This document shows, in pieces, positions 1,778 to 57,530 of a stretch of DNA of 64,000 nt. The notes under the pieces are model-generated. The model did not search any database, was not told where the DNA came from, and was given only the letters and a program-made list of their open reading frames with translations. Position numbers and translations under genes: made by a program. The stretch comes from Talaromyces rugulosus (taxonomy: Eukaryota > Ascomycota > Eurotiomycetes > Eurotiales > Trichocomaceae), in assembly GCF_013368755.1 (NCBI RefSeq), contig NC_049564.1:2364001-2428000 (forward strand), in the 5' to 3' direction. The stretch's first letter is position 1. Every line of letters starts with the position of its first letter.

Positions 1778-4700
1778 ATGGAGTACGTCACGATACCAAC
1801 TGAAATAGCGAGGAGCGCAACTGCGTGTAAGGAAATTTTGGACATGCATGCCCCGAAGGAGCATGCATGGATTCGATCGGCGCAACTCGACTTCAACCTT
1901 TGGTGCTGCGCTATCAAAGCCACATCACTTGACAAATCGGGGATGGATCACAGGTTAAGGAACTATCCAGATGCACGAGAGTCAATTTGCAATCTTCTCG
2001 ATGCTTTGAAAACTTCTGTTGAAGGAGCAGTGGGCATCTATAGTGGGACTTGTAAGCTTCTGGTCTCCAATAATAATTATATAGCTAACTGTGAGATCCG
2101 AAGCGAAAGAACTTGAAGATGACAAGTCAGAAGATGATATTCCTCAGTTAGTGGACGAGAATGACGCAGAAGCCCCTGCTTGGGAGGGAGAGTTAGAGGA
2201 CTCGGATAGCACACAGGAATCTGACGAAGTACAGTCTTCCTCGACAAAATCAGAGGCGTTATTTAATGAGGAATCCGAGAGTGAAGACAATGCTTTGAGC
2301 AACTCCGGTTCAACCTCGACCAATAATTCAGTTCTTGAAGAATACATCTCATATGTCAGAACGATTCTAGACCAACTGACAAGAATATCCCTCACCATCC
2401 GGAGAGCCGGCGCCAAGTATCGGTTTGAGAGAGCAGACAAGGCCTTGAAGGAGACAGAAGAAGTTAAAGCATTCCGTCAGCATCTTACAACAATCATCAA
2501 CTCTGGATTTCCCGACAAAGATGCCGAGGGCTTGCCGGCCACGGAAAAGATGAAACGAGTCTATGATGACAGCAAATTCAGCCCCGTCAAGTTGAAATTG
2601 ATACGTGCAAATATTCTCCGTAGACATCGCATTGAGTATTTCACCAAAGCACGAGCTAGAACGCATGCTCCAGTAGAGGTGCCAGAGGAAGTCCAGGTGC
2701 AGAAGCCTGACAAGACTCCAGCTGCGGTGGATAACGCTCCTCCTACGAGCATTGTATCTTCGAAAGAAAAAGAAAGTCAGCCAGTCACCCCAATTGCTCC
2801 TCAAGCGCATGAGGCGCCAGCCGAAAGGACCCGCTCAATCTACACTGCCGCAGTAACGGCGACCGATGTTGGCCCGAATTTTGATACTACGGATCTATCC
2901 GCGAATAAGACGCCATCAAGGATAACCAGGGTGACAAAGATTGGGGGATCGCAGGCCTATCCGGGGTGTCCAAAGCCCCTGCCAAATGGGACACTAATCT
3001 GTCCGTACTGCAATGATAAACTGCCAGACTCGTATGCGAAGAATGAACAAAGTTGGAAGTAAGTACCAGAGGCTAGTTTGCATCCCATTTACTGATATAT
3101 TCCAGAGCACACGTCGCTCAAGATATTCTCCCCTACTCGTGCATTATGGAAGAGTGCAGCAACGATGATGAGATGTACCTCAAGGCAGATCAGCTACTTG
3201 CGCATATGAGAGCGAAACATTCTTCAACAAAATGGACTTGCAATCCTTGCTCGACCCACACCAAACAGGCCTCCGAATTCGATCAGTCTGATCCACAAGT
3301 TCTAGTTTTCTTTGACAGTGCCGAAAGCTGGCAGGCCCACACAGAACAAGAGCATGGGAACCTTGGACCAGCGCCCCAGCGAGATATCCTCATGGAACTC
3401 AGCAAGCGACAACTCATTGGCCCGCTGGTGTGTCCGCTATGTAAAACAGAGCCCACGGAGCCGAGGACAGGCATCGACGAGCACATATTGAAGCACTTAC
3501 ACGAGTTCGCGCTTCGAGCGCTTCCTGGAGATGCCGGATCAGCGAATGAGAAAGAAAGCACTACGTTTCAGGTATCGAGTAGCGCCAATCTACTCTCGTA
3601 TACGACAGACAGTTGGACTGCCAATGTCGGTACTCCAGGTGATGAATTCATCCGCTATAAAATGGTGATGGAAATATTTGACGGCCTCGAACCAAGATTG
3701 GAAAGATTCGAACCGGAATTCAGTGAGCAAGCCCGAACAGGCCTGAGAAGATGTCGGAATATCATGACATCTCAATATCATGACCCTAACAACAGAATTC
3801 AAATTTATGATCCTTCAATCATCAATCTACTGGAAGTTTACCACATATTTAGCAACACTGATAAAATTCCACGGATTCAAGACCAACCATATCCGCCACA
3901 CAACATCACCCTTGAGATGGAGCAGGATATTTTAAATGCAGCTTTGGAGCGAATTTTTGACATGAACGATAGCGGAATAGCAGCTACAGAAGATTTTCTG
4001 AATCTTCTCGAAAGTAAGTAGAAGTTTCACCTATCTGCTATATAGCAAAGGCCGGCTGTATGTTAAGGCAAATGGACTTGGCTAACTAAATCTTAGGAAA
4101 GGTCAAGTATCCCATCGATTTACCTCTTCCGTCTCCCAGCCCAGACCGAGTCGACATTGAAGACATTGCAGAAAGGATAGACACTGGCTTGACCAAAGAC
4201 ACCGATCTGACCAGGCATTCTAACAAGTACAAAAACAGCCCTATGCCTCTTGGCGAAGAATTCAAGAAGCCCACAAAGGATGCCATTGGACTTGTTAGAG
4301 AATTGAGTCTCCTGCCAAATATCATACTCACTGGGCGTGATCCTGACAAGATCACCAAGACTACAGTAAAGCTAGTCAATGAGTTGAAAAGGCAGGTAGA
4401 AGATTGGTCAATTCTCTGGGTTGACGCTCGAAGCGTAGCTTCCATCCAGAAGTCATGCGTGCAGATCCTCGAAACCCTCATCGGAACGGAACTCAGAGAT
4501 GGATCAAGATATGAAATTTCTAGATATGGGGCCAAGGCACTTTTCCACTACCTCTCTTGGACGTATGAGGGTCTTTGGATTATGGTCTTTGATGGATTAG
4601 AGGCAGATGGGGCAATATATCTCCGACTGGAGAATATGTTCCCTCGTTCTTGTGCCGGAACACTCATAATATCCACGACTGACCCTACATCCGCCCAGTT

Positions 4701-7700
4701 GCTTGGCCTGGCAGAAGTTATTCAACTTCCCGAAGCAGATAGTTCTCTGATGGTCGACCTGATCAACGACATCGATCTGAAGAAGTTGAAGGTCGTGATG
4801 GAGGCACAGTTTGACTCATTCTCTGACCAAGACGAAGTCCAATGCCTCCCAGGCACTAGGACCGAGCTCCTTCAGCAAATAATGGAATGGGCTATGTCGC
4901 CGTCCCAAAAAAGCATTTTCTGGCTAAAGGGAATGGCTGGGACAGGAAAATCCACAATATCTCGAACTGTGGCAAGGTCACTCAAGAACACCAACCATCT
5001 AGGTGCCAGCTTCTTCTTTAAGCGGGGTGGAGGGGACGCAGGGAACGCGAAGAAGTTTTTCCCGACATTGACAGGGCAACTGATGCTCAGGATCTCTGGA
5101 CTAAGATATGGCGTGCAAAAGGTGCTCAATCATGACCCTAATATTGCTTCAAAATCACTCAGTGAGCAGTTTGAGAAACTACTCCTTCAACCACTGCTTA
5201 ATCTTGACCGACTCAGTGGACAACGTCAAACCGCTGTGATGGTTATTGACGCATTAGATGAATGTGAACATGATCAAGATGTCCAGATTATAATTCAACT
5301 ACTGCCTCTTCTACAGAAGGTAGAAGCAGTTCATCTTCGGATCTTCGTGACTAGCAGACCTGAACTGCCAATTCGCCATGGCTTTTCAAAGGTCGCGGAT
5401 CATGAATATCAGGACCTAGCTCTTCATGAGATACCCGAAGAAGTGACAGAACATGATATAAATTTATTTCTACAAGACCGATTTGCAAAGATTAAACACG
5501 ACAGAAATATTTCGCAAGACTGGCCTGGCGATGATGTCATCCAAGAATTGGTTACAATGTCTTTTCCACTTTTTAGCTCGGCTGCCACAGTATGTCGTTA
5601 CATCGAGAATTCAAAATGGGAACCTAAATTGCGCCTTGCAGAGCTTCTCTCGGACCAAGCCAAATATGTATCAAGAATGGATAAGATATACCTACCAATT
5701 CTAGAACGACTGCTAGACGACCAAGAAGGTGATGAGTCAGAGCAGCAGCAGCTCCTGAAAGAGTTCCAGATAATGGTCGGTGTCATCATCCTTCTTGCTG
5801 TTCCGCTTTCTATAAATGCGCTATCATTATTCCTGGAAATAGGAGCAGACCAGATCAGCAATCTACTTGAATCATTTCGATCTGTTTTAAGCGTTCCTAG
5901 TGATCGAGACCAGCCTGTGAGGATTCTGCATCTATCATTTCGGGACTTTGTGGTCCAGCCTGGAACCAAGTTCTCTGTAGATAGGGCGCAGAAGCACAAA
6001 GAAATTGCTAAGTTGTGCCTTAAAACTATGCGACGTTGTTTACAGAGAGATATCTGCCATCTAGAAGGCCCTGGAACGCGTAGAGCAGACATCGACGCTC
6101 AACATATCCGCCGATGTATACCAGCGGAATTACAATACTCTTGTCGCTACTGGATATACCATCTCGAGCAGAGTAACGCCATATCTTCTAATATAGAAGA
6201 TGTGCGACTTTTTCTCCAGGAACATTTTCTACATTGGGTAGAAACGATAGCCCTACTTGGCCTCATATCAGAGGTGGTGGGTATGCTTGATCTTCTGCAC
6301 ATGGCTATACCAGTAAGCATCACAGTATACAGTCATTTAAGATATACACTAAAAGATGTAGGGCGATGATAATTCTGTATTATCTAATTTTGTGCATGAT
6401 GGAAAGCGCTTTATTCTTAAAAATCGCCAGATAGCCGATGAAGTACCACTTCAAATTTATTGCGCAGGATTGGTATTTGCACCTCGAACGGCAATAATTC
6501 GTACAGTGTTCAACCGAGACATTCCTAGCTGGATATGCCGGCTGCCACAAGTTAACGAAAGATGGAGTGCAGAATTACAGACTCTCGAGGGTCATTCTAG
6601 CTCAGTTTCATCAGTAGCCTTCTCTCCTGACGGCCGGCTACTGGCGTCCAGTTCTTTTGACCAGACAGTGCGGCTCTGGGATACAGCAACAGGTAGTCTA
6701 CAGCAGACTCTTGAGGATCATTCTGGCTCGGTTTTATCAGTAGCCTTCTCTCTTAACGGCCGGCTACTAGCATCCGGCTCTCAGGACAAGACAGTACGCC
6801 TTTGGGACACAGCGACAGGTTGTCTACAGCAGACTCTTGAGGGTCATTCTAGCTCAGTTTCATCAGTAGCCTTCTCTCCTGACGGCCGGATACTGGCATC
6901 CGGCTCTTGGGACAAGACAGTGCGCCTTTGGGACACTGCGACAGGCGCTCTACAGCAGACTCTCAAAGGCCACTCTGACTCAGTTTCGTCAGTGGCCTTC
7001 TCTCCTGACGGCCGGCTACTGGCATCCGGCTCTCGGGACAAGACAGTGCGCCTTTGGGACACAGCGACAGGTTGTCTACAGCAAACTCTTAAGGGTCATT
7101 CTGGCTCAGTTTCATCAGTAGCCTTCTCTCCTGACGGCCGGCTACTGGCATCCGGCTCTCAGGACAAGACAGTGCGCCTTTGGGACACAGCGACAGGCGC
7201 TCTACAGCAAACTCTCGAGGGCCATTCTGACTCAGTTTCGTCAGTGGCCTTCTCGCCTGATGGCCGACTGCTGGCGTCCGGCGCTGGTGACGAGACAGTA
7301 CGCCTTTGGGACACAGCGACAGGCGCTCTACAACAGACTCTCGAGGGCCACTCTGACTCGGTTTCGTCAGTGGCCTTCTCTCCTGATGGCCGGCTACTGG
7401 CGTCCAGTTCTTTTGACCAGACAGTACGCCTTTGGGAAACAGCGACAGGCGCTCTACAACAGACTCTCGAGGGCCACTCTGACTCGGTTTCGTCAGTGGC
7501 CTTCTCTCCTGATGGCCGGCTACTGGCGTCCAGTTCTTTTGACCAGACAGTACGCCTTTGGGACACAGCGACAGGTGCTCTACAACAGACTCTCGAGGGC
7601 CACTCTGACTCGGTTTCGTCAGTGGCCTTCTCGCCTGATGGCCGACTGCTGGCGTCCGGCGCTGGTGACGAGACAGTACGCCTTTGGGACACAGCGACAG

Positions 7701-8260
7701 GCGCTCTACAGCAGACTCTCGAGGGCCATTCTGGCTGGGTTTATTCAGTGGCCTTCTCGCCTGATGGCCGGCTGCTGGCGTCCAGCGCTGGTGACAAGAC
7801 AGTACGCCTTTGGGACACAGCGACAGACGCTCTACAGCAGACTCTCAATGGCCACTCTGGCTCAGTTTCGTCAGTGGCCTTCTCTCCTGACGGCCGGCTA
7901 CTAGCATCCGGCTCTCAGGACAAGACAGTGCGCCTTTGGGACACAGCGACAGGTGGTCTACATGAGACCTTGACCACCAAGGGAATCGTCACAGAACTCG
8001 AATTTTCACAAGATAGGTCATATATCAACACCAACCTAGGATTGCTCAGGATGCAATCCGGGAATGGCAATAATATCTCCAGGCCACCCAAAACAAATCC
8101 AAATATATTTCTGGAAGGGCGGAACTGGGTGGTTCTAAATGGTAAACAAGTACTATGGCTTCCTCCTGAGACTAGGCCTTCTTGTTCAGCAATAAAATCA
8201 AATATGCTCGCTCTGGGACATGCGTCAGGTCGGATTTCCTTCATAGGATTTCGGGTATAG
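1778..8260 (+). CDS. NLR1: zinc-finger / NB-ARC-like / NACHT / WD40 STAND protein
   Basis: Five exons are proposed: 1778-2051, 2104-3058, 3106-4013, 4097-6312 and 6362-8260, about 2083 aa. Introns 2-4 (47, 83 and 49 nt) have good donors and acceptors and matching phases. The first acceptor (2103 or 2109) is less certain. Domains in order: an N-terminal helical region of the kind preceding acuF-type zinc fingers (DHRLRNYPDARESICNLLDAL); an acidic Ser/Glu stretch; Cys/His zinc-finger motifs (CPYC near residue 391, CPLC with HILKHLHEFALRALP near 520-545); an NB-ARC-like domain (about 745-930) with a decayed P-loop; NACHT with Walker A GMAGTGKST (about 991) and Walker B VIDALDEC (about 1095); the linker FILKNRQIADEVPLQIY; then 11 WD40 repeats and a degenerate twelfth. 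Such proteins act as cytosolic non-self or heterokaryon-incompatibility sensors (family knowledge). No frameshift is seen. The fusion of acuF-type fingers, NB-ARC-like and NACHT-WD40 parts is unusual. Confidence 0.85.
6577..7963 (+). repeat. NLR1 WD40 repeat array, 11 x 126 bp
   Basis: Eleven in-frame 42-codon units run through the last exon of NLR1, each with a GHSxSVxSVAFSPDGRLLAS core and an SxDxTVRLWDTATG end. Units 7 and 8 differ at only a few bases, as do units 6 and 9, indicating recent duplication of a block of units. The differences concentrate at the residue after GHS, the residue before SVAF, and the ASxSxD loop (SFDQ, SQDK, SWDK, SRDK, AGDE, AGDK). A degenerate twelfth unit (TLTTKGIVTELEFS) closes the array. 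Confidence 0.92.
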
Positions 8261-8796
8261 TAGGTCTTAATTAGTTGGTTTGATATCTTCGTATATCTTC
8301 TAGTCTCTTATAGGAGGGCCTAGGAGAGATAGAGAATTTATTTCGACTGATTTCTTTCCCAGAATATGCTACATGTTTCCTACAGATTCCAACATAGTGG
8401 CAAATGCGCAAGATCTAGTTGCCACAAGTCTATCCTGACTTAAGCATCTTTTGAGCTATTTGTCACATAGTAAATGAAACTGTAGAAGAAAACAGGTACA
8501 GTAGCTGATTATTATGGATAGCTAATCCACGGTATTTGGTGCTCATCAAGGCGTTCCATAAGCCATGTGGGGTGACGACATCGCAAAGAGCCTTAAGGCA
8601 ATTCAATGGGAGCTAGCCAAGTCACGTAATTAACATTAGGTGGTAGAACTTAGTATTCTCGGCCCGAGAACTAAGTATCGGGGAAACTCCACGTGACACA
8701 TGGAGACATTTTCATCTGGGACAGGGTGGACTCTAGTTTGAAAGTATAGTACTAAATGTACTCCGTAGATCTGCGCCAATTGTTTGTGGGCCTGTG

Positions 8797-8814
8797 TACG
8801 GAGTACTCCGTACA
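8797..8814. repeat. 18-bp perfect palindrome GTACGGAGTACTCCGTAC
   Basis: The stretch reads the same on both strands. A related half-site (TACTCCGTAG) lies about 40 bp upstream at 8759. Palindromes of this TACGGAGTACTCCGTA type recur in intergenic DNA of Aspergillaceae genomes (background knowledge, not checked here). Function is unknown; it could be a protein-binding site or a mobile-element scar. Confidence 0.6.
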
Positions 8815-8844
8815 GAAAAGTGCGTATATAATATTCATACAGTA

Positions 8845-8998
8845 CTGTATATTACCTGTTTCATACCACATGTAATTTACACTAAGCCTTATTTGAAACA
8901 GGGACTCAATAACCTACTCAGACTAATGTCTTGGCAGTGGGGCTAGAAGAAAACTGTTTTATGTTTATCAGTCAAACCGATTTCGGGAATGACTGTAC
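8845..8998 (+). repeat. Repeated block, copy 1 (ends at conserved ATG)
   Basis: About 150 bp from CTGTATATTACC to CGATTTCGGGAATGACTGTA. Copies occur at 27276-27430 (minus strand) and 32721-32870 (plus strand). All contain TTTGAAACA, GACTAAT, CTTGGCAG or CTCGGCAG with GGGGCT, and the near-identical GTCAAACCGATTTCG(G/A)GAATG. In this copy the frame from the ATG (8989) closes after 13 codons. Confidence 0.75.
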
Positions 8999-9009
8999 AA
9001 TCTGTGATT

Positions 9010-12000
9010 CTAATGACACTGTCTCTTTGAACTACCAACTTCCTGGATTGGTTGCTTTCTCTTGCGTAATCCAACTGCTGGTTTATTGCGTTTCGCATGC
9101 CCTTCATCACCACTACAACACAGGAGGCGCCCTGGAGATCCATGGTCCGGGGTCCCAAAATATGAATCAAGCTGCTGACGACGAACAAACCATTGAATTG
9201 ATTGAGGGAAGGCACTGATTTTTCTCCTTTTTTCCCTGCCGGTTCGTAGATAGATATTGATCATACTTGTCAGATTCCGAACTGAGAAGGTCACTCGTTT
9301 TCGATACCGCTGACAGCCAGAACATCTGTCTAAACGAAGACTAGAAATATCAAGCTCACCCAGAAGTTCAGAATCGATCATAAATTGGAGATGATTATCC
9401 TGTAGTCTCAAAAGGTCCGATACGACGGTTTGACAGTTGCCGCGACAGCGGATCGAGCCTTCACAATGAAATCGATCACCCACACGGTTTGGGAGTCTAT
9501 CAAGAACAAAATAGAACCTTTCGACAAGTGCATTGGTAGTCTCCTCGAACACCTGACTGGATCTAGTCAAACCTTCTCGTGCCTTTTTTCGTAGGGCTGT
9601 CATTCCAGCGGTATCAGATATCCTTAACGGCCCGCAAAGTTCGATATTGAAACGAGAGACTTTCACGTCAAAGAGTCGGCTGGCTACTTGATCACCATCC
9701 ACACATCGACCCAGTGAACGACCCATGCGAAAGACCGCATGGTTGTGGAGCCATTGGGAGATGTCGTTTCGTTGCGTCTTGTTGGGGTGATCATCTTTGC
9801 GATTCATCCTTTTGCCAGTCCCAAGGGAAAGCACATAACCAGATACGTGGAAAGACAACAGCCGACGTCGTTCAAGAAGACAGAGAAGAGTAGGATTATT
9901 GTGACCGCCTAATCCACCGTCCTGAAGTGTTCTTTTCAGAGGGACGTCCATTTCCACCGGCGCGTATAGCCTAGTCCAGGTGAGCAGTCTGCCAAATGAA
10001 TAGACGGTCAATCTTACCCTGGTGCAGCAGACGTTGCTTGCCCGCTTTAAAGAGTTAGCACTGCGAGAAGAGAGAAAGGCAGATACATACATTTTCCACA
10101 CTAGAGGTTCATTTGTGACATCCTCATGATGCACAAACTCATATCCTGGCGTCATTAGCTCAAATTCATCATTATGGAAATGCCGCTTTTACCGCACTGA
10201 CTCCCCACGGCAGCATTTCCGTTGTATGTGGCGAACACCAACGTAGAAGAATTTTCAGTATCCGTTGCCGTGATGAGTACTTTCTTTCCGGAGTATCCTT
10301 TGGTGTACCCAAACATGGGGCGATCCGATCCCAGGATATCCATTAAAGTTTGCGCCATGGTATTTGCGTCGTATACGCCGTCAGAAATGATGCAGCGTAG
10401 AAGACCTGTAAAGAAATTCCAGAACTGGCCGCTGACCCACGGAGATCTGTGAAATACACGTCGCGCGAGTTTGTCAAATACATGGCTGCATTGGTGAACA
10501 TTCCAGCCCATCATTATGAGGCCTATAACGATGAGACCCCCTGTGCTATGATTCAGTAGTGCTTTTCGTAGAAGGAATGATAGCATACCTGAGCTTGTCC
10601 CTCCTGACAAATCAAACAGATCAACAAGGGGCGTTTCAATCAAGTCTTGCATAGCCCGTAAAAATTCTAGGGGTATAACGCCTCTCGTACCGCCGCCATC
10701 AATGCTGAGAATACTCAAGTTTGCCGTCGGAGGGGTTAAACTCGCTACTACTCTTGCGGAAACTTTGCATAGAATACAAAACGACACAACGAACCGTTGG
10801 TCCGCCTCCTTCGACTCCTGACCATAAATGCGCGCGCATTGGTCACAGATTGTATGACCGCAGGTGAGGACATGCTCTTCGGGCTTTCGCCGTATGCAGA
10901 AGAGGCACGTGTGGTTAGACCGCATTAGCGACCAGACTCGACTTCGGAGGCTCAAGTTGTCGCTGTGGACCTGAGCCGAAGTCCTATCTCCGGTTGCTAA
11001 TTCACCAAACAGCCGACAAAAATGGGTTTCTATCAAAGTTGGTATAGTAACCGCATCCTCGCCATTGGCCACCTGGCTTGCAGCCTGGGAGCAGAAAGGC
11101 ATATATAGAGAGTGGAAGACTTCGCTTGGGGGGAACCCTAGTAATGTTAAATTTGCTTAAGTGCTGGATATTTGATTCTTACGATGCATATTTGGCGGAT
11201 AAGCGTCCATGAGGATGGCAGATGCGATGAAAGAAGCCATGTCATAATAGGAGACATCAAGCGCCAGACTAAGTCGAAGAAAGTTTATAATATGGCCGAC
11301 AAATGCCCCCTCAAGGAGATTGTCCGCCCTCGTCGCAGCAATGAAATCGAATGGATCCGATGCGGTTTTGGCAACGTGCTCAAGAGCGAGACGGAAAAAA
11401 GCCGCAAAGTGGCTACAGGATAGCCGCGTTCCATTTTGATTGCGTCGTTCGTTGATTTCCTGCAAGTGTGACAAAAGGACATTCTTGAGTGGCATATTTC
11501 CTTGATTCTTAGATTTGTTCTGGTAGAAAGGCGGCAGTAGCGTATACATGTCACCTATCTCAGTCCAATCCGGTCCACTAATGTAATCTTCGATCTGCTG
11601 CTGTGTACTGGCAGACTCAGACCAGATTAAAATCACATTTGGGCGGTTGGAAGAAGGAAGGCTGGACGACTGTGCTGCCTTCGCCCAGCCGATTAACTGG
11701 ATTGCAACTTCTCTCAGATCTGAAAAATCTTCGACAAAGATGCAAATCAGGTCACTAAAGGGAAAGGTGAGACGCGCCAAAAGAACGTTCACGATGTGTC
11801 GAGATGTAGCAGGCCACTTTACTTCAAGTAGGTGGTTCTTTGATTCTGTCGACAACTCATCCTGGACAGGTGCTGTAAATGGATTGCAGTCTGCTAGAAG
11901 CAAAGGTGCACAGGAGCTCGCGGTGGAATCTACCACACGGAGGTCATATAGACTGGACATGGAAGTGCGCCTTTGAAAGCTATCAGGGAAGACCGCGCGG

Positions 12001-26934: not shown

Positions 26935-27285
26935 TCACATGATCATAGCATTTGTATAGAGATGCAATTGTGTCTCTTGTGTCATCATCTTCTCACAGTC
27001 CGCGATGGTCAGGGGAAAACGGTACATCTGTTTCCTCCATGGCCTTGGAGTGCGAAAGACCCGTTGGTGGTTACTGATTCTGTTGATCAGATCCCATTGT
27101 TGAGGCTCAGACAAATTCGCAACACACTCCCGACAAAGTGTATCGATATTGATGTGCCGCTTAATAGGAATAAGATATGTGAACAGGGCAGCATAGGCTG
27201 AACCCGGATCATAATACACAATGGTGAAACGTCTTTCTTGAGAGTCATGCCGAGGACAAGCGATGCATGACCATGTTACAGCCAT
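26935..27285 (-). CDS. Small Cys-containing protein, unknown
   Basis: An open frame of 116 aa starting exactly at the ATG that closes the repeated block (copy 2). Visible residues include CIACPRHDSQERRF near the start and TLCRECVANL in the middle, so two CxxC pairs could bind zinc. FTIVYYDPGSAYAALFTYLI and IPIKRHINIDTL look like folded protein sequence. No family was recognised. In the other two copies of the block the frame after the ATG is closed by early stops. The gene may have further exons; the frame ends in a stop without a splice signal that I could choose. Confidence 0.42.
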   Translation of the reverse strand: MAVTWSCIACPRHDSQERRFTIVYYDPGSAYAALFTYLIPIKRHINIDTLCRECVANLSEPQQWDLINRISNHQRVFRTPRPWRKQMYRFPLTIADCEKMMTQETQLHLYTNAMIM

Positions 27286-27430
27286 TCTCGAAATCGGTTT
27301 GACTGACCAACATATGACAGTCTTCTCGTAGCCCCACTGCCGAGGAATTAGTCTACGTCGATTGATGAGTCACTTGTTTCAAGTGAGGGCTGCTGTAAGT
27401 TACCTGTGGTATGAAACGGGTAATATACAG
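27276..27430 (-). repeat. Repeated block, copy 2 (inverted relative to copies 1 and 3)
   Basis: Minus-strand copy of the block described at 8845. It runs from CTGTATATTACC to CGATTTCGAGAATGGCTGTA. It forms the left flank of NLR2, copy 3 the right flank, in opposite orientations and about 5.3 kb apart. Confidence 0.75.
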
Positions 27431-28091
27431 TATTGTATCAATATCATATACATACTTTTCATTGTCTACATACAGTCCAAAATGCAATTGGTGCAGATCT
27501 ACGGAGCACGTTTAGTACTATATTTTCAAACTAGGCTCCAACCCTGGTGCACGTACGGTCGTCCCCGACTAAACGTCCCGACGTACCATGTGGAGTCTCC
27601 CCTGCATGGACGCAAGGACGAAGAAGCTTTCACGGGCCGAGAAAAGATCCTGTTCACGTGATACCTAGCAAATATCATCACAAGACTTAGCTTAGGCTAT
27701 TACGATGTCGTCGCCGCTCGTGGTGGTATAGAAAGACTTGATGAAGACAAAATACTGTGGGTAAAGTATGATAAGAATCAGCTGCCTGTATCCTTTTACG
27801 GTTTCATGTAACTATCAAGGCTGTCCTGGTCATGAAAATCAATCTGATAGGATATTTAGGTGGAAGGGCGGAAAATTTCAGATACTGTGACAAATCAAAA
27901 TATGCTTTACTCAGAATAGATCTATGGCGACTAGACCATTTGGATTGCCACTGTCAGAATCTATAGGAAGCACATAGCATGTTCTAGAAAAGAAATAAAT
28001 CCATATAAATTCTCTGCCTCTCCCAGGCCCTCCTTTTGTAAAGAGATTAGAAAACAGAGGAAGAGAAAACCTTAAATTAATCAAGACCCCA
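27431..28091. other. NLR2 3' flank, no gene
   Basis: Non-coding part of the duplicated segment. Open frames here (for example 27362-27661 plus) are not conserved in the NLR1 copy and are not taken as genes. Confidence 0.6.
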
Positions 28092-31000
28092 CTACACCCG
28101 AAATCCTATGAAGGAAACCCGACCTGACGTATGTCCCAAGGCAAGAATGTTTGATTTTATCGCCGAACAAGAAGGCCTAGTCTCAGGAGGAAGCCATAAT
28201 ACTTGTTTGCCATTCAGAGTTACCCAGTCCCGCTCTTTCAGAAGTATCTCCGAGTTGATTTCGGGTGAACTGGAGATATTATTGCCGCACCCGGATTGCA
28301 TCCTAAGTGATCCTAGGTTAGTGATGATATATGGACTATCTTGAGAAAATTCGAGTTCCGTGACGACTCCCTCAGTGATCAAGGTCTCCTGCAGACCACC
28401 TGTCGCTGTGTCCCAGAGCCGAACTGTCTTGTCAAGAGAGCCGGACGCTAGAAGCCGGCTATCAGGTGAGAAAGCCACCGATAAAACCGAGCTGGAATGG
28501 CCCTCGAGAGTCTGCTGCAGACCGCCTGTCGCTGTGTTCCAGAGCTGTACTGTCTTGTCATCAGAGCCGGATGCTAGGAACCGGCCGTCAGGCGAAAAAG
28601 CCATTGACCGAACCCAGTTGGAATGACCCTCGAGAGTCTGCTGCAGATCACCTGTCGCTGTGTTCCAGAGCCGCACTGTCTTGTCATCAGAGCCGGACGC
28701 TAGGAGCTGGCCATCAGGCGAGAAGGCCACCGACCAAACCGAGTTAGAATGACCCTCGAGAGTCTGCTGTAGACCACCTGTCGCTGTGTTCCAGAGCCGC
28801 ACTGTCTTGTCAAGAGAGCCGGACGCTAGAAGCCGGCTATCAGGTGAGAAGGCCACCGATAAAACCGAGCTAGAATAGCCCTCAAGAGTCTGCTGCAGAC
28901 CACCTGTCGCTGTGTCCCAGAGCCGCACTATCTTGTCAAGAGAGCCGGACGCCAGGAGCCGGCTGTCAGGTGAAAAAGCCACCGACCGAACTGAGCCGGA
29001 ATGACCCTCGAGAGTCTGCTGCAGATCACCTGTCGCTGTGTTCCAGACCCGCACTGTCTTGTCACCAGAGCCAGATGCCAGTAGCCGGCTGTCAGGTGAG
29101 AAGGCCACTGACCGAACCCAGCCGGAATGGCTCTCAAGAGTTTGCTGCAGACTACCTGTTGCTGTGTTCCAGAGCCGTACTGTCTTGTCACTAGAGCCGG
29201 ACGCCAGCAGCCGGCCGTCAGGTGAGAAGGCCACCGACCGAACCGAGCTGGAATGGCCCTCGAGAGTCTGCTGCAGACCACCTGTCGCTGTGTTCCAAAG
29301 CCGCACTGTCTTATCAAGAGAGCTGGACGCCAGAAGCCGGCTATCAGGTGAGAAGGCCACCGACCGAACCCAGCCGGAATGGCCCTCAAGAGTCTGCTGC
29401 AGATCACCTGTCGCTGTATCCCAAAGCCGTACTGTCTTGTCATCAGAGCTAGACGCCAGCAGCCAGCCGTCGGGTGAGAAGGCCACTGACCGAACCCAGT
29501 CAGAATGACCCTCGAGAGTCTGCTGCAGATCACCAGTCGCTGTGTTCCAGACCCGCACTGTCTTATCATCAGAGCTAGACGCCAGCAGCCAGCTGTCGGG
29601 CGAGAAGGCCACCGACCGAACCCAGCCAGAATGGCCCTTAAGAGTCTGCTGCAGACCACCTGTCGCTGTGTCCCAGAGCCGCACTATCTTGTCATCAGAG
29701 CTGGACGCCAGGAGCCGGCCGTCATGTGAGAAGGCCACTGACCAAACCGAGCTGGAATGACCCTCGAGAGTCTGTAATTCTGCATTCCATCTTTCGTTAA
29801 CCTGTGGCAACTGGCATATCCAACGAGGAAGGTCTGCTTCGAACTCTGTACGAATTATTGCCGTTCGAGGGGCAAACACTAATCCTGCGCAATAAATCTG
29901 AAGGGGTGCTTCGTCGGCTATCTGGCGATTTTTAAGAATAAAGCGCTTTCCATCGTGTACAAAATCAGACAATACAGAATTCTCATCGCCCTATATATTT
30001 TAGTGCACCTCTCAAATGGCTGTATACTGCGGTGCTTACTGGTATATCCATGTGCAGAGCATCAAGCATACCCACCACTTCCGATATAAGACCCAGCAGC
30101 GTCATCGCTTCTACCCAATGCAGAAAATGCTTCTGGAGGAATAGTCGCACATCTTCCATTTTGGAAGATAAGGCATCACTTTGTTCGAGGTGGTATATCC
30201 AGTAGCGACAAGAGTATTGTAATTCCGGTGGTAGATACTGGCGGATACGTTGAGGGTCAATGTCTGCTCTACGCGTTCCAGGGCTTGCTAGATGGCAGAT
30301 ATCTTTCTGTAGACCACGTCGCATAGTCTTAAGACACAACTTAGCGATGTCTCTGTGCTTTTGTGCTTTATCTACAGAAAACTTAGATCCGGGCTGTACC
30401 AGAAAGTCGCGAAAGGATAGATGTAGAATCCTCACTGGCTGATCTCGATCACTGGGAACATTCAAAACAGATCGGAATGAGTCTAGTCGATAGCTGATCT
30501 GGTCTGCTCCTATTTCGAGGAATAACGACAGCGCATTGATAGAAAGTGGAATAGCAAGAAGGATGACGACACCGACTATTGTCTGGAACTCTTTTAGGAG
30601 CTGCTGCTGCTCTAACTCGTCACTTTCTGGGTCGTCTAGCAGTCGATTTAGAATCGGTAGATATGTCTTATCCATTTTCGAGACATATTTGGCTTGGTCC
30701 GTGAGGAGCTCTGTAAGGCGCAATTTCGGTTCCCATTTTGAATTCTCGATATAACGGCACACTGTGGCAGCTGAAATGAATAGTGGAACGGACATCGTGA
30801 CCAATACTTGGATATCATCGCCAGGCCAATCTTGCGAAATATTTTGATCGTGTTTAATCTTCGCAAATCGGTCCTGTAGGAATAAATGTATGTCATGTTC
30901 AGTCACTTCTTCAGGTATCTCATGAAGAACTAGGTCCTGATATTCATAATCCGCGACCTTTGAAAAGGCACGGTAAATTGGCGGTTCGGTTCTGCTAGTC

Positions 31001-32102
31001 ACGAAAATTCGAAGTCGCACTGCTTCTATCTTCTGTAGAAGAGGCAGTAATTGAATTATATTCTGGACATCTTGGTCGTGTTCACATTCATCCAAGGCGT
31101 CAATTACTATCACGACGGATTGAGGTTGTCGGCTGAGTGGGTCAAGATTGAGCAATGGTTGAAAAAGTAGTTTTTCAAACTGCTCTCTGAGTGATTTTGA
31201 CACAATATCAGGGTCGTGATTGAGTGCCTTTTGCACACCAGATCTCAGCCCAGAGATCTGGAGCATCAGTTGCCTTGTTAGTGTTGGGAAAAACCTGCTC
31301 GCGTTCCCTCGCTCCCCTTCACCCCGCTTAAAGAAGAAGCTGGCACCCAGATGATTGGTGTCCTTAAGCGACCTTGCCACAGTTCGAGATATTGTGGATT
31401 TTCCCGTCCCAGCCATCCCCTTCAGCCAGAAGATGCCTTTTAGGGATGACGATCGAGCCCATTTCATTATCTGCTGAAGGAGCTCGGTCCTAGTGCCTGG
31501 AAGACATTGGGCTTCATTTCGATCAGAGAAGGAATCAAATTCTGCCTCTATTACGGCTTTCAACTTCTCCAGATCCATGTGTTGACTAATACGATCGGTA
31601 TCATGGACCAGGCCGACTATCAGAGAGCTATGCAGTTCTTGAGTCATTATACCGAGTCAAAATACGGTACTGGATGAACGTACGTTTGATCCACTTGTAA
31701 CGACAAGAGGAATGAAGATTTATATCTCTCAAGGTTCTGGATCGCGCCCTCCACCTCTTCCCGTTGCATGGGCCATTTTAAGGCTCGTATTCCCACTTTT
31801 CTCATCAGCTTCTTTCCCTTTCCTGGATCAAGTGTCGCGTCCAAGGCACGCAGGTCGGAGAGGCAATCAGTAATATCGCTGGCTAGTTGCGACGAGATAG
31901 ATAGGGCCCGTTTGTCGTTGCTTTGGAGAACTTTCTGTAGGTTTTGGAGGGTTCCTTGAAAGCCAGCGATCGCCCGCTGTAGGGTCAAAATTTCATCTCG
32001 CGCATTCTTCACCTCGTGAATGTAGCTCCCACAAAGCTTCACGAGGCTTCCCGTTAATTGAATGACTGCAATAACGCTTGCCGCCGAGGATAAACCATCC
32101 AT
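28092..32102 (-). CDS. NLR2: HeLo-like / NACHT / WD40 STAND protein
   Basis: Three exons, 32102-31684, 31627-30040 and 29990-28092, with introns of 56 nt (phase 2, GTACGT...GCATAG) and 49 nt (phase 0, GTAAGC...ATATAG), give 1301 aa. Residues 1-139 are a HeLo-like/'fungal N-terminal domain of STAND proteins': MDGLSSAASVIAVIQLTGSL and NARDEILTLQRAIAGFQGTL. NACHT follows with Walker A GMAGTGKST (about 211-219) and Walker B VIVIDALDEC (about 315-325), then FVHDGKRFILKNRQIADEAP and 11 WD40 repeats plus a degenerate last unit. HeLo-like domains are membrane-targeting cell-death domains in fungal incompatibility proteins; NACHT oligomerises on ligand binding to the WD40 part (family knowledge). All motifs look intact and no frameshift is seen. 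Confidence 0.9.
28386..29772 (-). repeat. NLR2 WD40 repeat array, 11 x 126 bp
   Basis: Eleven in-frame 42-codon units with cores GHSxxVRSVAFSPDSRLLAS and SxDKTVRLWNTATG. Unit number equals that of NLR1, but the unit types differ (VRSV/VWSV/VLSV; DDK/LDK/SDK/GDK instead of FDQ/QDK/GDE). So each array has been homogenised separately since duplication. Variable residues fall at the same unit positions as in NLR1. Confidence 0.92.
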
Positions 32103-32720
32103 TTGGAGGGTGCGGCATAATATCGTTGGTGCTTTAGGTAGGATGGCGACCGGAGTGTAATCCAGAATTATATTATTAATTATAAGTTGGGTGTTTCCAG
32201 CGAGATAAAGAGGGGTTATACACCAGACGCGAGGCTGTGCCAGGCGCTAATGTGATTAATCATGCATTCCTTAACCCTGTTGAACCGCAAGGTGGTTGCT
32301 ATGAGGTGAGTCGCATTAGCGGCCTGCACACATGGTATCACGTGAGTCGGGTTTAATGTCGGAAATAGGATTAGGTGCAGGATGCAAACAATACAAATAT
32401 AAAATTGATATAATGAAGGTCTGAAAGGTCTGAAACTAAATACTGTACATGAAAACACAACAAATTTATACTCAAAACATGCGCAATTTCTGACTAGATC
32501 ATCAAGTTGATTTATATGATCTGTATGATCCGTTTGATTTGTATGATTTGGTGTTGAACCTGATAAACTGTTGAAAAAATATATAGCAAAGTTGAGCATT
32601 CTGACTGGTTCGTTTTTGGATTAGTAAGGTAGTCCATTTTCCGACATTTAATCACAGACCGTTAGGCTAGGGTTGCCCATCATATATGGAAATATAGCAT
32701 TGTAATACAATGTCTTGTAT

Positions 32721-32870
32721 TGTATATTACCTGCTTCATACCACAACTAACTTACACCAAGCTTCATTTGAAACAGGGGCTCAATGATCTACTTAGACTA
32801 ATATCTTGGCAGCGGGGCTGTGAGAGAACTGTCGTGTGTTTATCAGTCAAACCGATTTCGAGAATGACTG
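32721..32870 (+). repeat. Repeated block, copy 3
   Basis: Plus-strand copy of the block described at 8845, ending CGATTTCGAGAATGACTGTA at 32864-32873. The frame from the ATG stops at the fourth codon (ATG ACT GTA TAG), so nothing is encoded after it. Unlike copies 1 and 2 it is not attached to an NLR 3' flank. Confidence 0.75.
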
Positions 32871-33064
32871 TATAGATCCGCGATGTAAAGAGAACATGTT
32901 CTATTGGTATTAACACTTGCTGTTTCAATCGAGAAGCTGACTTACATATACGTCGGACTTGATGAAAAGCGATTTTTGTGGGCTCAATACTTAAAGGATT
33001 TACATGTTATTATATTTAAGTTAGGAATCGAAGAGACAGCCTCGGTGGATAAAGACCCTTCCCC

Positions 33065-51153: not shown

Positions 51154-54100
51154 TTATGTAATCAGCCGACCGCCTGCCATTTTTGGATTAGGGTCTGGAA
51201 ATTCAATCTTCAAATGTATTCGACTCATTATAGCGTGGTCAATTTCGATTACGCGGTCGGTTGCCAGGAAGAGTGACCCCTTGTAGTATTCAAGTTTCCG
51301 AAGGAAGATGGTTACAAGGCAGTCATCCTGGTACGAGCGTTTTTCCGTAAGAGCATCCGCTTGAGTTATAAGAAGGACTGCGTTGAGTTGTTTCATAACT
51401 CTAAAGATGCGATCGAGGGTACTATCCAGTTGCGAAGGATCGCCATCTGTCACTAACTCACTGGCCGAGACCTAATAGTTCAGTATAAAGAACGCCCATT
51501 GTGTAGACATCGCTTACCGAGTAAAGAGGTCGCCCAGGTGTTGCTTCAACCAGGAATGTTTTGCTAAATCCCGGCACGCCGCTATGATGTTTTAGAAAGG
51601 GATTTTGTTTTAGAAAGGACTAACTTACAAGAAGATGGCATTGAGGCCTTGACCCGTCTCATGGACAAAATCAACGGCTTCTCCACCATTGCCGCACAGG
51701 TGAGATATTGTCTCTAAAAGAAGACGCCGTCTCTTGTCTCTTGCAACTTTGAAGTGGTTAAAGGCCCACTGAACATCTTCTAAACCGTCCACGGCACATT
51801 GCACTATTTTGATGAGTATTGGTTCACATGGATAGCAAGAGTAGACTTACGGAACATCTTATCATTAAAGCTGAAGCAACAGACGGTCGGGCAACGTATG
51901 AGGTATTCATTTTTTCCGTCTAATATCTCAGGATTTTGCAAGGATACCCCATCGACAATTGGACGGCGGTCCGGTTCCATTTCACGAAATAAACGAGCAT
52001 CGACTGCAACACAGCTGTCGATATTCACCGCCTGCACTTTGCCATTCACCATACTGAAGGCGTTTCCCCTGCAGTATCGTATCAGGGGGTTGGCTCTGTG
52101 TCCTAGCATCAATTCGCTGAGCTTGCGACCCCGCTTTATGAGTATCCGGGCGGCATGATCCTGATGGGGATGATACTGGAGTGGGAATGCCTCGAGGGTG
52201 GTAATCAGTTTGCGTCCATTAAACTTGGCGATGCCTATTTCCAATCCTTCTTTCCTAATCTCATAGCCGTCATAGTCAAGGAAGTAGCATTCAAGTTTGA
52301 AATACGGTGTACCTTCCCATATAGCCTTTTTGCCGGCGGCAAAAACGACGCATCGAGGTTGTTGAGAGATGGGACACCTTGAGTATACATAGCATCCCGG
52401 TTTGAACAGCGCCTCAAGGAGATCATATGTGATCTCTCCCTTCTGTATCAATGGCTTGACAATGAAAGAATAGGTCTCGTTGAGGTAATCTTTAAGTAGA
52501 GAGAGATGGTCATAGCCAATGATGCATTCCTCTCGCTTGCACTCGAGCTCCGGTAAAAAATGCAATAAAACCATCTCACTAATCTGCCTCAAGATTAACA
52601 TCTAGTGTCTTTCAAGTCCCCATATTGCTTACTGATGCCTTGGTTTTCATGAACTTGGCAGTCTTCACATTCTTCAACCTCTCCCCTACAATCCCCAAAC
52701 TTCCTAACTCCATGTCGACGTAGATAGTAGATTCTTTAGAGATTCGGTCTGGAGCGGGATGAGAATTCATCTTTTGCTAAACAAAAACCCTCGTACATAC
52801 CAATATGTTTCCGCATAACTATCACAGGAAAGATGGTCTCTCTTTTTGCCAAGCGTACCAGCTTGTACTTTGAGGCAACACTATCCCAGCTAGTTCATTG
52901 TCAGCGGTATTTAGCACATATAGGAGGCGAGTCAATCTATACATTTCCAGAACCCTTTCTAGACTAACTCCGTACTTTCTAAGGGTATTTGGCGACGGAA
53001 AGTTTTCAATGTGAGGCTCTGGGCTGGTTTCGATTTCTGTTGCGTCCTCACGAGCTTGATACTCTCCGTAAGCTCCAGATGTATCTAAAGTCAGGATCGG
53101 ACGATGATGTACAATACCTCCCATAGCAGGTGAGGGTGGAATGTATATGGGAGTGATCGCAGCTGCTTATTATTAGGATTCTTCAGGAAAATAAGTTGTT
53201 TTTAGATCTGGGTATCTTACCACTGCTCTCTTGAGTAACTTTCATAGGTGTAGTATCCGATACTTCATCGATCGCTTTGGCTATGAGCCTCTTCCAATCA
53301 TCCTTCGGAGAGGGATGCCGCTTTTTTTCCCCTAAGGATTGAGACAGGGATGTCGGGAGCGCTTCCTCAACGTTAAATTGTCGTGGGATATCCATTTTGG
53401 CGAACGAGCTTCTGCTGGGCTGTTCCACTGGGCTGGGTATTCCACTGGGCTGGGCTGTTCCACTGGGCTGGGTATTCCGCTGGGCTAGGCTGTTCCGCTG
53501 GGCTGGGCTGTTCCACTTGGCTGGGTTGTTCCACTGGGCTGGGTATTCCGCTGGGCTAGGCTGTTCCACTGGGCTGGGTATTCCGCTGGGCTGGGTATTC
53601 CACTGGGCTAGGCTGTTCTGCTGGGCTGGGTATTCCGCTGGGCTGGGCTGTTCCACTGGGCTGGGTATTCCGCTGGGCTGGGTATTCCACTGGGCTAGGC
53701 TGTTCCGCTGGGCTGGGTATTCCGCTGGGCTGGGTATTCCTCTGGGCTAGGATGTTCCGCTGGGCTGGGTATTCCGCTGGGCTGGGTATTCCTCTGGGCT
53801 AGGATGTTCCGCTGGGCTGGGTATTCCGCTGGGCTGGGTATTCCGCTGGGCTGGGTATTCCGCTGGGCTAGGCTGTTCCACTGGGCTGGGTATTCCGCTG
53901 GGCTGGGTATTCCGCTGGGCTGGGTATTCCGCTGGGGCGGGCTGTTCCACCAGATTGGGCTCTGCTGGGCTGAGGATGCTTTGTGGTTTTTTATTTTTAT
54001 TTTTAGACCACTCTTCTAGCCTCGCTAGCAAAGCAGTAAAAAATAAAATATAAAATAAGACAAAGAAAGGAACACAGGAAGCCTTAGCAGGCTCGTGTCT

Positions 54101-57290: not shown

Positions 57291-57530
57291 CCGATTTCTC
57301 CGTTTCTTTCCCCGCTTCCCGAATTTGCTGCTGCCGGACTTTTCCGCTTCTTTCCCCGCTTCCCGAATTTGCTGCTGCCGGACTTTTCCGCTTCTTTCCC
57401 CGCTTCCCGAATTTGCTGCTGCCGGATTTCTCCGTTTTTTTCCCCGCTTCCCAAATTTGCTGCTGCCGGATTTCTCCGTTTCTTTCCCCGCTTCCCGAAT
57501 TTGCTGCTGCCGGATTTTTCCCTTTCCCAT
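57291..57530. repeat. 44-bp minisatellite, about 5 copies
   Basis: Head-to-tail copies of a 44-bp unit (core CCCCGCTTCCCGAATTTGCT, then GCTGCCGGA and TTTCTCCGTTTCTTT or CTTTTCCGCTTCTTT). Neighbouring units differ at only a few positions. The array is pyrimidine-rich on the plus strand and stops about 20 bp before the ATG at 57553, so it may lie in the promoter or 5' leader of that gene. Open frames through it on both strands are by-products of its composition. Confidence 0.88.

Follow-up and report, generated by a model that had tools for sequence, protein, structure and literature searches.

Fungal NOD-like receptors (NLRs) of the HET-E/HET-D/NWD type are NACHT–WD40 proteins, and high internal conservation of the WD40 repeats with few variable positions is what one would expect of a fungal NLR sensor. 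According to a study of Sordariales NLRs (PMC12258605), 55 of 4613 receptors were scored as both nucleotide-binding domain (NBD) types and treated as having one ambiguous domain, and 57 carried zinc fingers, at the C-terminus in 52. Our literature search, the coverage of which is incomplete, turned up no report of tandem NBDs preceded by a zinc-finger prefix. Here, we describe NLR1, a predicted gene of Talaromyces rugulosus in a 64,000-nucleotide stretch, hereafter the window (C4:2364001-2428000 of a 35.8 Mb genome in six contigs). We consider it rather probable that NLR1 is an intact-looking gene in which an N-terminal module has been fused to a NACHT–WD40 cassette, with the NACHT domain as the sole nucleotide switch and the module as a prefix in the effector slot.

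The five-exon model of NLR1 contains 2083 codons plus a stop and no internal stops. Its product is identical, letter for letter, to the deposited T. rugulosus protein TRUGW13939_07626 (P0009), so the annotators' model must be the same, including the first intron, on which the preliminary description mentioned below had not decided. The exact ends of this intron are the least sure part of the model, because its acceptor is non-YAG (CCGAAG) and the donor at 2043 with an acceptor at 2103 or 2109 would also keep the frame. The domain order is a zinc-finger region, a first NBD (NBD1, residues ~785-927), a NACHT domain and 11 WD40 repeats. NBD1 and NACHT are encoded by the same exon (4097-6312), within a single stop-to-stop frame of 759 codons (4090-6369), and their junction is therefore independent of splicing. 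A preliminary description of this DNA, made from its letters, had predicted one frame-keeping protein of about 2080 residues and a three-part chimera of zinc fingers, NB-ARC-like part and NACHT–WD40, and both predictions hold in this gene model. The features are as follows.

1778-8260, + strand: NLR1 gene; exons 1778-2051, 2104-3058, 3106-4013, 4097-6312 and 6362-8260
1778-4740, + strand: N-terminal module (residues 1-927); helical-looking region, zinc fingers, linker and NBD1
3000-3502, + strand: zinc-finger block (residues 391-542); one CCH and three C2H2-like sets, split by the intron 3059-3105
4312-4740, + strand: NBD1 (residues ~785-927); predicted NB-ARC-derived nucleotide-binding core without ARC1/ARC2
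4333-4365, + strand: degenerate P-loop of NBD1, GRDPDKITKTT replacing GxxxxGK[ST], placed by alignment with intact relatives
4739-4743, + strand: fusion point, where homology to NLR2 stops, placed within about five bases
4743-8540, + strand: cassette common to NLR1 and NLR2; NACHT, linker, intron 6313-6361, WD40 and 3′ flank
4861-5358, + strand: NACHT (NPHP3_N), Pfam E 7.7e-31
4930-4956, + strand: intact NACHT Walker A, GMAGTGKST (residue 991)
6581-7966, + strand: 11 highly alike WD40 repeats of 42 residues each, Pfam E 7.1e-169

In the WD40 unit, positions 3, 7, 10, 26, 28 and 39 of 42 show at least three residue types. Pfam gave no match above the cut-off in exons 1-3, where the zinc-finger block is the sole recognisable N-terminal feature. 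Between 4099 and 4863 Pfam lists nothing at E values up to 10, a search in which the HMMER filters discard most weak matches. The 16 zinc-finger cysteines and histidines are invariant in all eight aligned rows, and each is kept in 24-26 of 26 relatives; nearly all misses in the larger count come from P0030, whose fingers are mostly missing, cut by the search pattern or the gene model, and from P0018, whose gene model is incomplete for the fingers. The accession PF26082, which we take to be the acuF-type C2H2 zinc-finger family, stands in the precomputed lists of P0001, P0002, P0010, P0013 and P0035; for NLR1 itself the acuF label is putative.

That the middle part, placed by the preliminary description at residues 745-930, derives from NB-ARC is upheld within the narrower limits of ~785-927, where profile search and structure prediction agree on an NB-ARC-type core. 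Fungal NB-ARC profiles matched NBD1 at 97% and shuffled controls at no more than 0.2%, and in a fold comparison the predicted structure matched the NB-ARC folds of plant NLRs, Apaf-1 and CED-4. The P-loop pattern GxxxxGK[ST] is not found in NBD1 of NLR1. The motif is degenerate in all six sequences of the close clade and in 12 of 25 aligned NBD1s overall, is free of lysine in T. pinophilus (GHDPDQNTETT), and keeps its canonical form in the other 13. None of the 25, NLR1 included, has the second Walker B acid or a TTR-type sensor arginine. Furthermore, only ~40 residues separate the end of NBD1 (~927) from the start of the NACHT profile (968), most of them common to the NLR2 cassette, which leaves no room for ARC1 and ARC2/winged-helix subdomains in NBD1; this argument is one of sequence, as the structure model ends at residue 931 and has no bearing on it. 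Judged by its motifs, NBD1 is not a predicted working NTPase; it appears to be an NB-ARC-type core turned pseudo-switch, its P-loop lost and its ARC subdomains missing.

The origin of the C-terminal part is seen by comparison with a second receptor in the window, ~20 kb from NLR1, and with a third copy elsewhere in the genome.

28092-32102, - strand: NLR2, intact-looking, 1301 residues; PigL_N-like domain, NACHT and 11 WD40 repeats, with the same cassette as NLR1
C5:785564-786187 (L030/L024), - strand: third cassette copy, a truncated relic with PigL_N-like pieces upstream

The PigL_N match of NLR2 (26.6 bits) is slightly below the cut-off of 27.2. BLAST aligned NLR1 4763-8479 with NLR2 at 83.2% DNA identity over 3725 nt, and in a MAFFT alignment the identity was 73-92% per 100-nt block from 4739 to ~8310 and continued into the 3′ flank, to ~8540; the last intron, of 49 nt, has the same place in both genes. 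To the left, homology stops abruptly: over the 60 nt that precede the anchor at 4741, identity to NLR2 is 27%, and the sequences are unrelated. The first base of NLR2 exon 2, after the predicted acceptor GCATAG, is the homologue of the NLR1 fusion base. The NLR1 junction reads GCAGATAG; its four bases ATAG are shared by the two sides and equal the end of predicted intron 1 of NLR2.

The preliminary description had proposed that a zinc-finger/NB-ARC gene captured a complete NACHT–WD40 cassette downstream of its own NTPase. Capture at ~4740 is supported by the NLR2 match and the sharp stop of homology, with the amendment that NBD1, judged by its motifs, is not a working NTPase; likewise, the captured piece consists of the NACHT–WD40 exons and is not a whole NLR, as the donor's PigL_N-like exon is absent. 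The predicted event is thus a replacement of the donor's front domain, in which the module took the place of PigL_N at an NLR2-type exon start. The relic on C5 also carries front pieces like those of NLR2 (75% and 94% identical), so the PigL_N-like front seems usual for this subfamily. As, in addition, 21 nt just after the junction are present in NLR2 and the relic and missing from NLR1 alone, NLR1 is likely the changed member among the three copies. Upstream frames that read by eye, with no profile, like nucleoside-phosphorylase-type fronts occur at 7 of 11 loci examined.

Relatives of the module were collected by searching twice with the T. rugulosus protein (eight matches each time, the second including the protein itself) and once with P0011 (29 matches); the first of the former and the P0011 search scored the best 8000 candidates only. 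Over the searched part, identity to NLR1 was 86% for P0001, 79% for P0002 and 77% for P0010. The similarity ends at one place: in P0001, P0002, P0003, P0004 and P0010, residues 901-930 are 80-100% identical to NLR1 and residues 931-960 are 12-44% identical, although among earlier blocks the linker at ~631-660 also dips to 40-57%. Beyond it the tails differ, with NACHT–WD40 in T. rugulosus and Leptodontidium, another NACHT in Clarireedia, and a long stretch followed by NACHT in T. pinophilus. In the wider family, the module is followed by a caspase-like domain (P0005), NB-ARC, FHA and kinase (P0014), NB-ARC and TPR (P0027), patatin, NB-ARC and TPR (P0030), NACHT and WD40 (P0022), or little else (P0028), further partners being read from precomputed accessions only. 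Zinc-finger and NBD1 proteins lacking NACHT, for which the preliminary description had proposed a search, are represented by P0028, P0005 and P0016, and by P0019 on precomputed accessions. That description had also called two successive NBDs in one protein unusual, a view that does not extend to this family, as 19 of the proteins recovered carry two.

Collectively, these comparisons permit a more tentative and somewhat doubtful generalization, that the 927-residue prefix is portable across fungal classes and has been joined repeatedly, at one fixed residue, to varied outputs, the first NBD drifting to a pseudo-switch and the second staying the motor. The output partners would then include complete NLRs or parts of them as well as domains of caspase-like, kinase or other type, and NLR1 would keep such a join nearly base for base. 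A tree was built from 22 of the 35 proteins, leaving out P0003, P0004 and P0026, which lack the N-terminus (the gene calls of P0003, from JGI, and of P0026 being partial), and a further ten in which NBD1 could not be used. It implies five changes of P-loop state, at least three of them forced by well-supported branches.

Three further observations concern relatives of the module. P0003 carries the same NBD1, which breaks off at the same residue and gives way to another stretch of zinc-finger type, with 24.6% identity to module residues 182-567. A distant T. rugulosus paralogue of the zinc-finger module on C5 (L029 7058-9108, - strand) has, by eye, a seemingly acyl-carrier-like end. The Trichoderma protein P0006, with a HET domain by precomputed accession, was rejected as a module partner, as its similarity is confined to 98 residues in the zinc-finger block (85% identity) and it may be a gene-model fusion.

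If NLR1 works as we propose, the WD40 propeller would sense a ligand, and the NACHT domain, as the only nucleotide-driven switch, would exchange nucleotide and oligomerise. The prefix would occupy the PigL_N effector slot, so that oligomerisation would gather zinc fingers and pseudo-NBD1, the latter acting not as an ATPase but as a surface for docking or self-association. The output may be handed to a separate executioner, for which the product of the head-to-head S8 protease gene described below is a candidate partner.

Several points weigh against this interpretation or parts of it. First, the structure model of NBD1 is modest (mean predicted local distance difference test score 57.4, predicted template-modelling score 0.61, eight sequences). 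Second, with Foldseek alone CED-4 and an ORC subunit were the only matches of NBD1 at E ≤ 1e-3, and the NBD1 profile had no significant match among Protein Data Bank (PDB) sequences, the best E value being 0.16 and that of NRC1 0.56. Third, intact NBD1s match the NACHT set too (94.5%), although below NB-ARC (99.9%). Fourth, over long distances NBD1 is 24-29% identical compared to 39-55% for the rest of the module (P0005, P0011). Fifth, all 19 two-NBD proteins have an intact second P-loop and nine an intact first one, the former count being partly built in, as second NBDs were recognised with profiles favouring a P-loop; nor are the 19 rows independent, P0002 and P0010 being near copies and the gene model of P0004 lacking the zinc fingers. 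Sixth, the Nei–Gojobori ratio of nonsynonymous to synonymous changes (dN/dS) for the NLR1 and NLR2 cassettes, 0.21 at dS 0.48, implies an ancient divergence in which at least one copy has been constrained, and as a two-copy value says nothing on constraint for NLR1 alone. Finally, NLR1, NLR2 and the relic are equally distant (pairwise identities 85.0, 86.2 and 84.9%), so the cassette may have come from a donor other than NLR2.

Of the rival explanations, the one that survives best, though we regard it as unlikely, makes the prefix an integrated decoy or sensor, in which zinc fingers and NBD1 mimic a targeted host protein and NACHT–WD40 reports its disturbance. PMC12258605 counts zinc fingers with the most frequent non-canonical domains of NLRs and, for Sordariales, considers that they may act as decoys, but there the zinc finger is C-terminal in most cases (52 of 57), whereas the whole module, wherever a gene model holds it, is N-terminal, the position of the effector slot. 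A bait might well stay conserved while the tails change, as the module does, and free-standing zinc-finger and NBD1 proteins such as P0028 are known; the enzymes that follow the module elsewhere (caspase-like in P0005, FHA-kinase in P0014) fit an output regulator better.

It is far less probable that NLR1 is a non-productive, decaying fusion, an accidental chimera with NBD1 as a roleless vestige. Loss of the P-loop, its recurrence on the tree, the existence of a relic cassette and the faster long-range divergence of NBD1 relative to the zinc fingers would agree with decay, but the 2083 stop-free codons, the low cassette dN/dS against NLR2 and the same kind of degenerate motif in six sequences would not. 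In P0001, P0002 and P0010, moreover, NBD1 is 80-90% identical to that of NLR1 compared to 83-92% for the N-terminus and zinc fingers, and because NBD1 is conserved like its neighbours despite the lost P-loop, a scaffold or docking role seems more likely than decay. Equally improbable is a two-input switch in which NBD1 binds nucleotide in an unusual manner and gates NACHT in cis, for although the 13 canonical P-loops make ancestral nucleotide binding probable and GRDPDKITKTT retains lysines nearby, the T. pinophilus motif has none and the second Walker B acid and sensor arginine are missing throughout.

The distribution of the module also raises the question of transfer between fungal classes. 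Clarireedia (Leotiomycetes) and T. rugulosus (Eurotiomycetes) share 87% identity over 846 columns, at 0.14 changes per site, and tree distances from T. rugulosus are 0.22-0.24 to T. pinophilus and 2.35 to Phialocephala. A grouping of T. rugulosus with Clarireedia excludes T. pinophilus with support 95/88; in the 22-row tree, the topology keeping Talaromyces together was not rejected by the approximately unbiased test (p 0.122). A foreign composition of the module found no support, its GC content (0.475) and GC content at third codon positions (0.479) being ordinary compared to the window (0.457). These data suggest horizontal transfer of the module between classes, which may be taken as a lead and not as a result.

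The surroundings of NLR1 hold further features.

1-1464, - strand: head-to-head neighbour, DUF7580 frames, with an S8 protease domain beyond the window edge (L036 = C4:2361000-2366300)
8722-8997, + strand: 3′ flank repeat, matching 27546-27277 at 78.8%; 8842-8997 also matches 32717-32872 at 85.9%

The ATG of NLR1 lies 313 bp from the assumed ATG of the neighbour, whose S8 frames are subtilisin-like with D, H and S motifs visible by eye; this gene is the candidate partner of NLR1 named above. Adjoining it outside the window, a 275-residue frame (L036 465-1289, + strand) has paralogues on C2 (47%) and C1 (24%); its suggested likeness to fungal gasdermin-like proteins found no support in Pfam, NCBIfam or PDB sequences. 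The ~156-bp repeat has three copies (8842-8997, 27277-27432 and 32717-32872), and the two that flank NLR2 are mutually inverted. Convergent with NLR1 is a patatin-like phospholipase domain (10155-11156, - strand, E 6.7e-8), accompanied by a RING-like stretch that scored below threshold. Starship elements are known to carry NLRs and patatins; Starship carriage, considered because of this neighbour, was not supported, since the nearest of 25 listed DUF3435 matches, from a search that scored the best candidates only, lies at C4 3253566, more than 0.8 Mb away. Self-comparison of the window also showed tandem-like direct repeats at 53410-53972 and 57293-57528.

A pseudo-NTPase placed before a working NLR switch would, if true, be a regulatory layer not found described for fungal NLRs in the literature searched. 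NLR1 and NLR2 offer a natural before-and-after pair in which a front domain has apparently been exchanged where an exon begins, and the occurrence of a closely similar module with different tails in Talaromyces and Clarireedia makes receptor shuffling and cross-class movement directly testable.

Compared to HET-E/HET-D/NWD receptors, NLR1 has the same NPHP3_N-type NACHT and near-identical 42-residue WD40 repeats with few variable positions, but its front consists of zinc fingers and a predicted NB-ARC-derived core replacing the N-terminal effector. With NLR2 it has the whole NACHT–WD40 cassette, intron and 3′ flank in common, whereas the front exon and first intron of NLR2 are missing from it. 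The T. pinophilus proteins P0002 and P0010 are 80% and 78% identical to it up to residue 930 and then have another tail and another NACHT (NPHP3_N at 1203-1355 in P0010). Clarireedia jacksonii P0001 shares the module at 86% and continues into a NACHT, but with NACHT blocks 29-63% identical and an NBD1–NACHT spacing 22 residues shorter. Leptodontidium P0004 (Leotiomycetes), whose gene model begins at residue 762, has an NBD1 89% identical, then NACHT and WD40, with NACHT blocks 7-60% identical (to residue 1530). Trizodia P0022 has the domain order of NLR1, zinc finger–NBD1–NACHT–WD40, but its module is 34% identical and its NBD1 P-loop intact; its NACHT is 20% identical to that of NLR1 and 68% to that of P0023, and it is probably an independent assembly. 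Finally, NBD1 shares its predicted NBD fold with Apaf-1, CED-4 and plant NLRs and differs from them in having neither a P-loop nor ARC1/ARC2.
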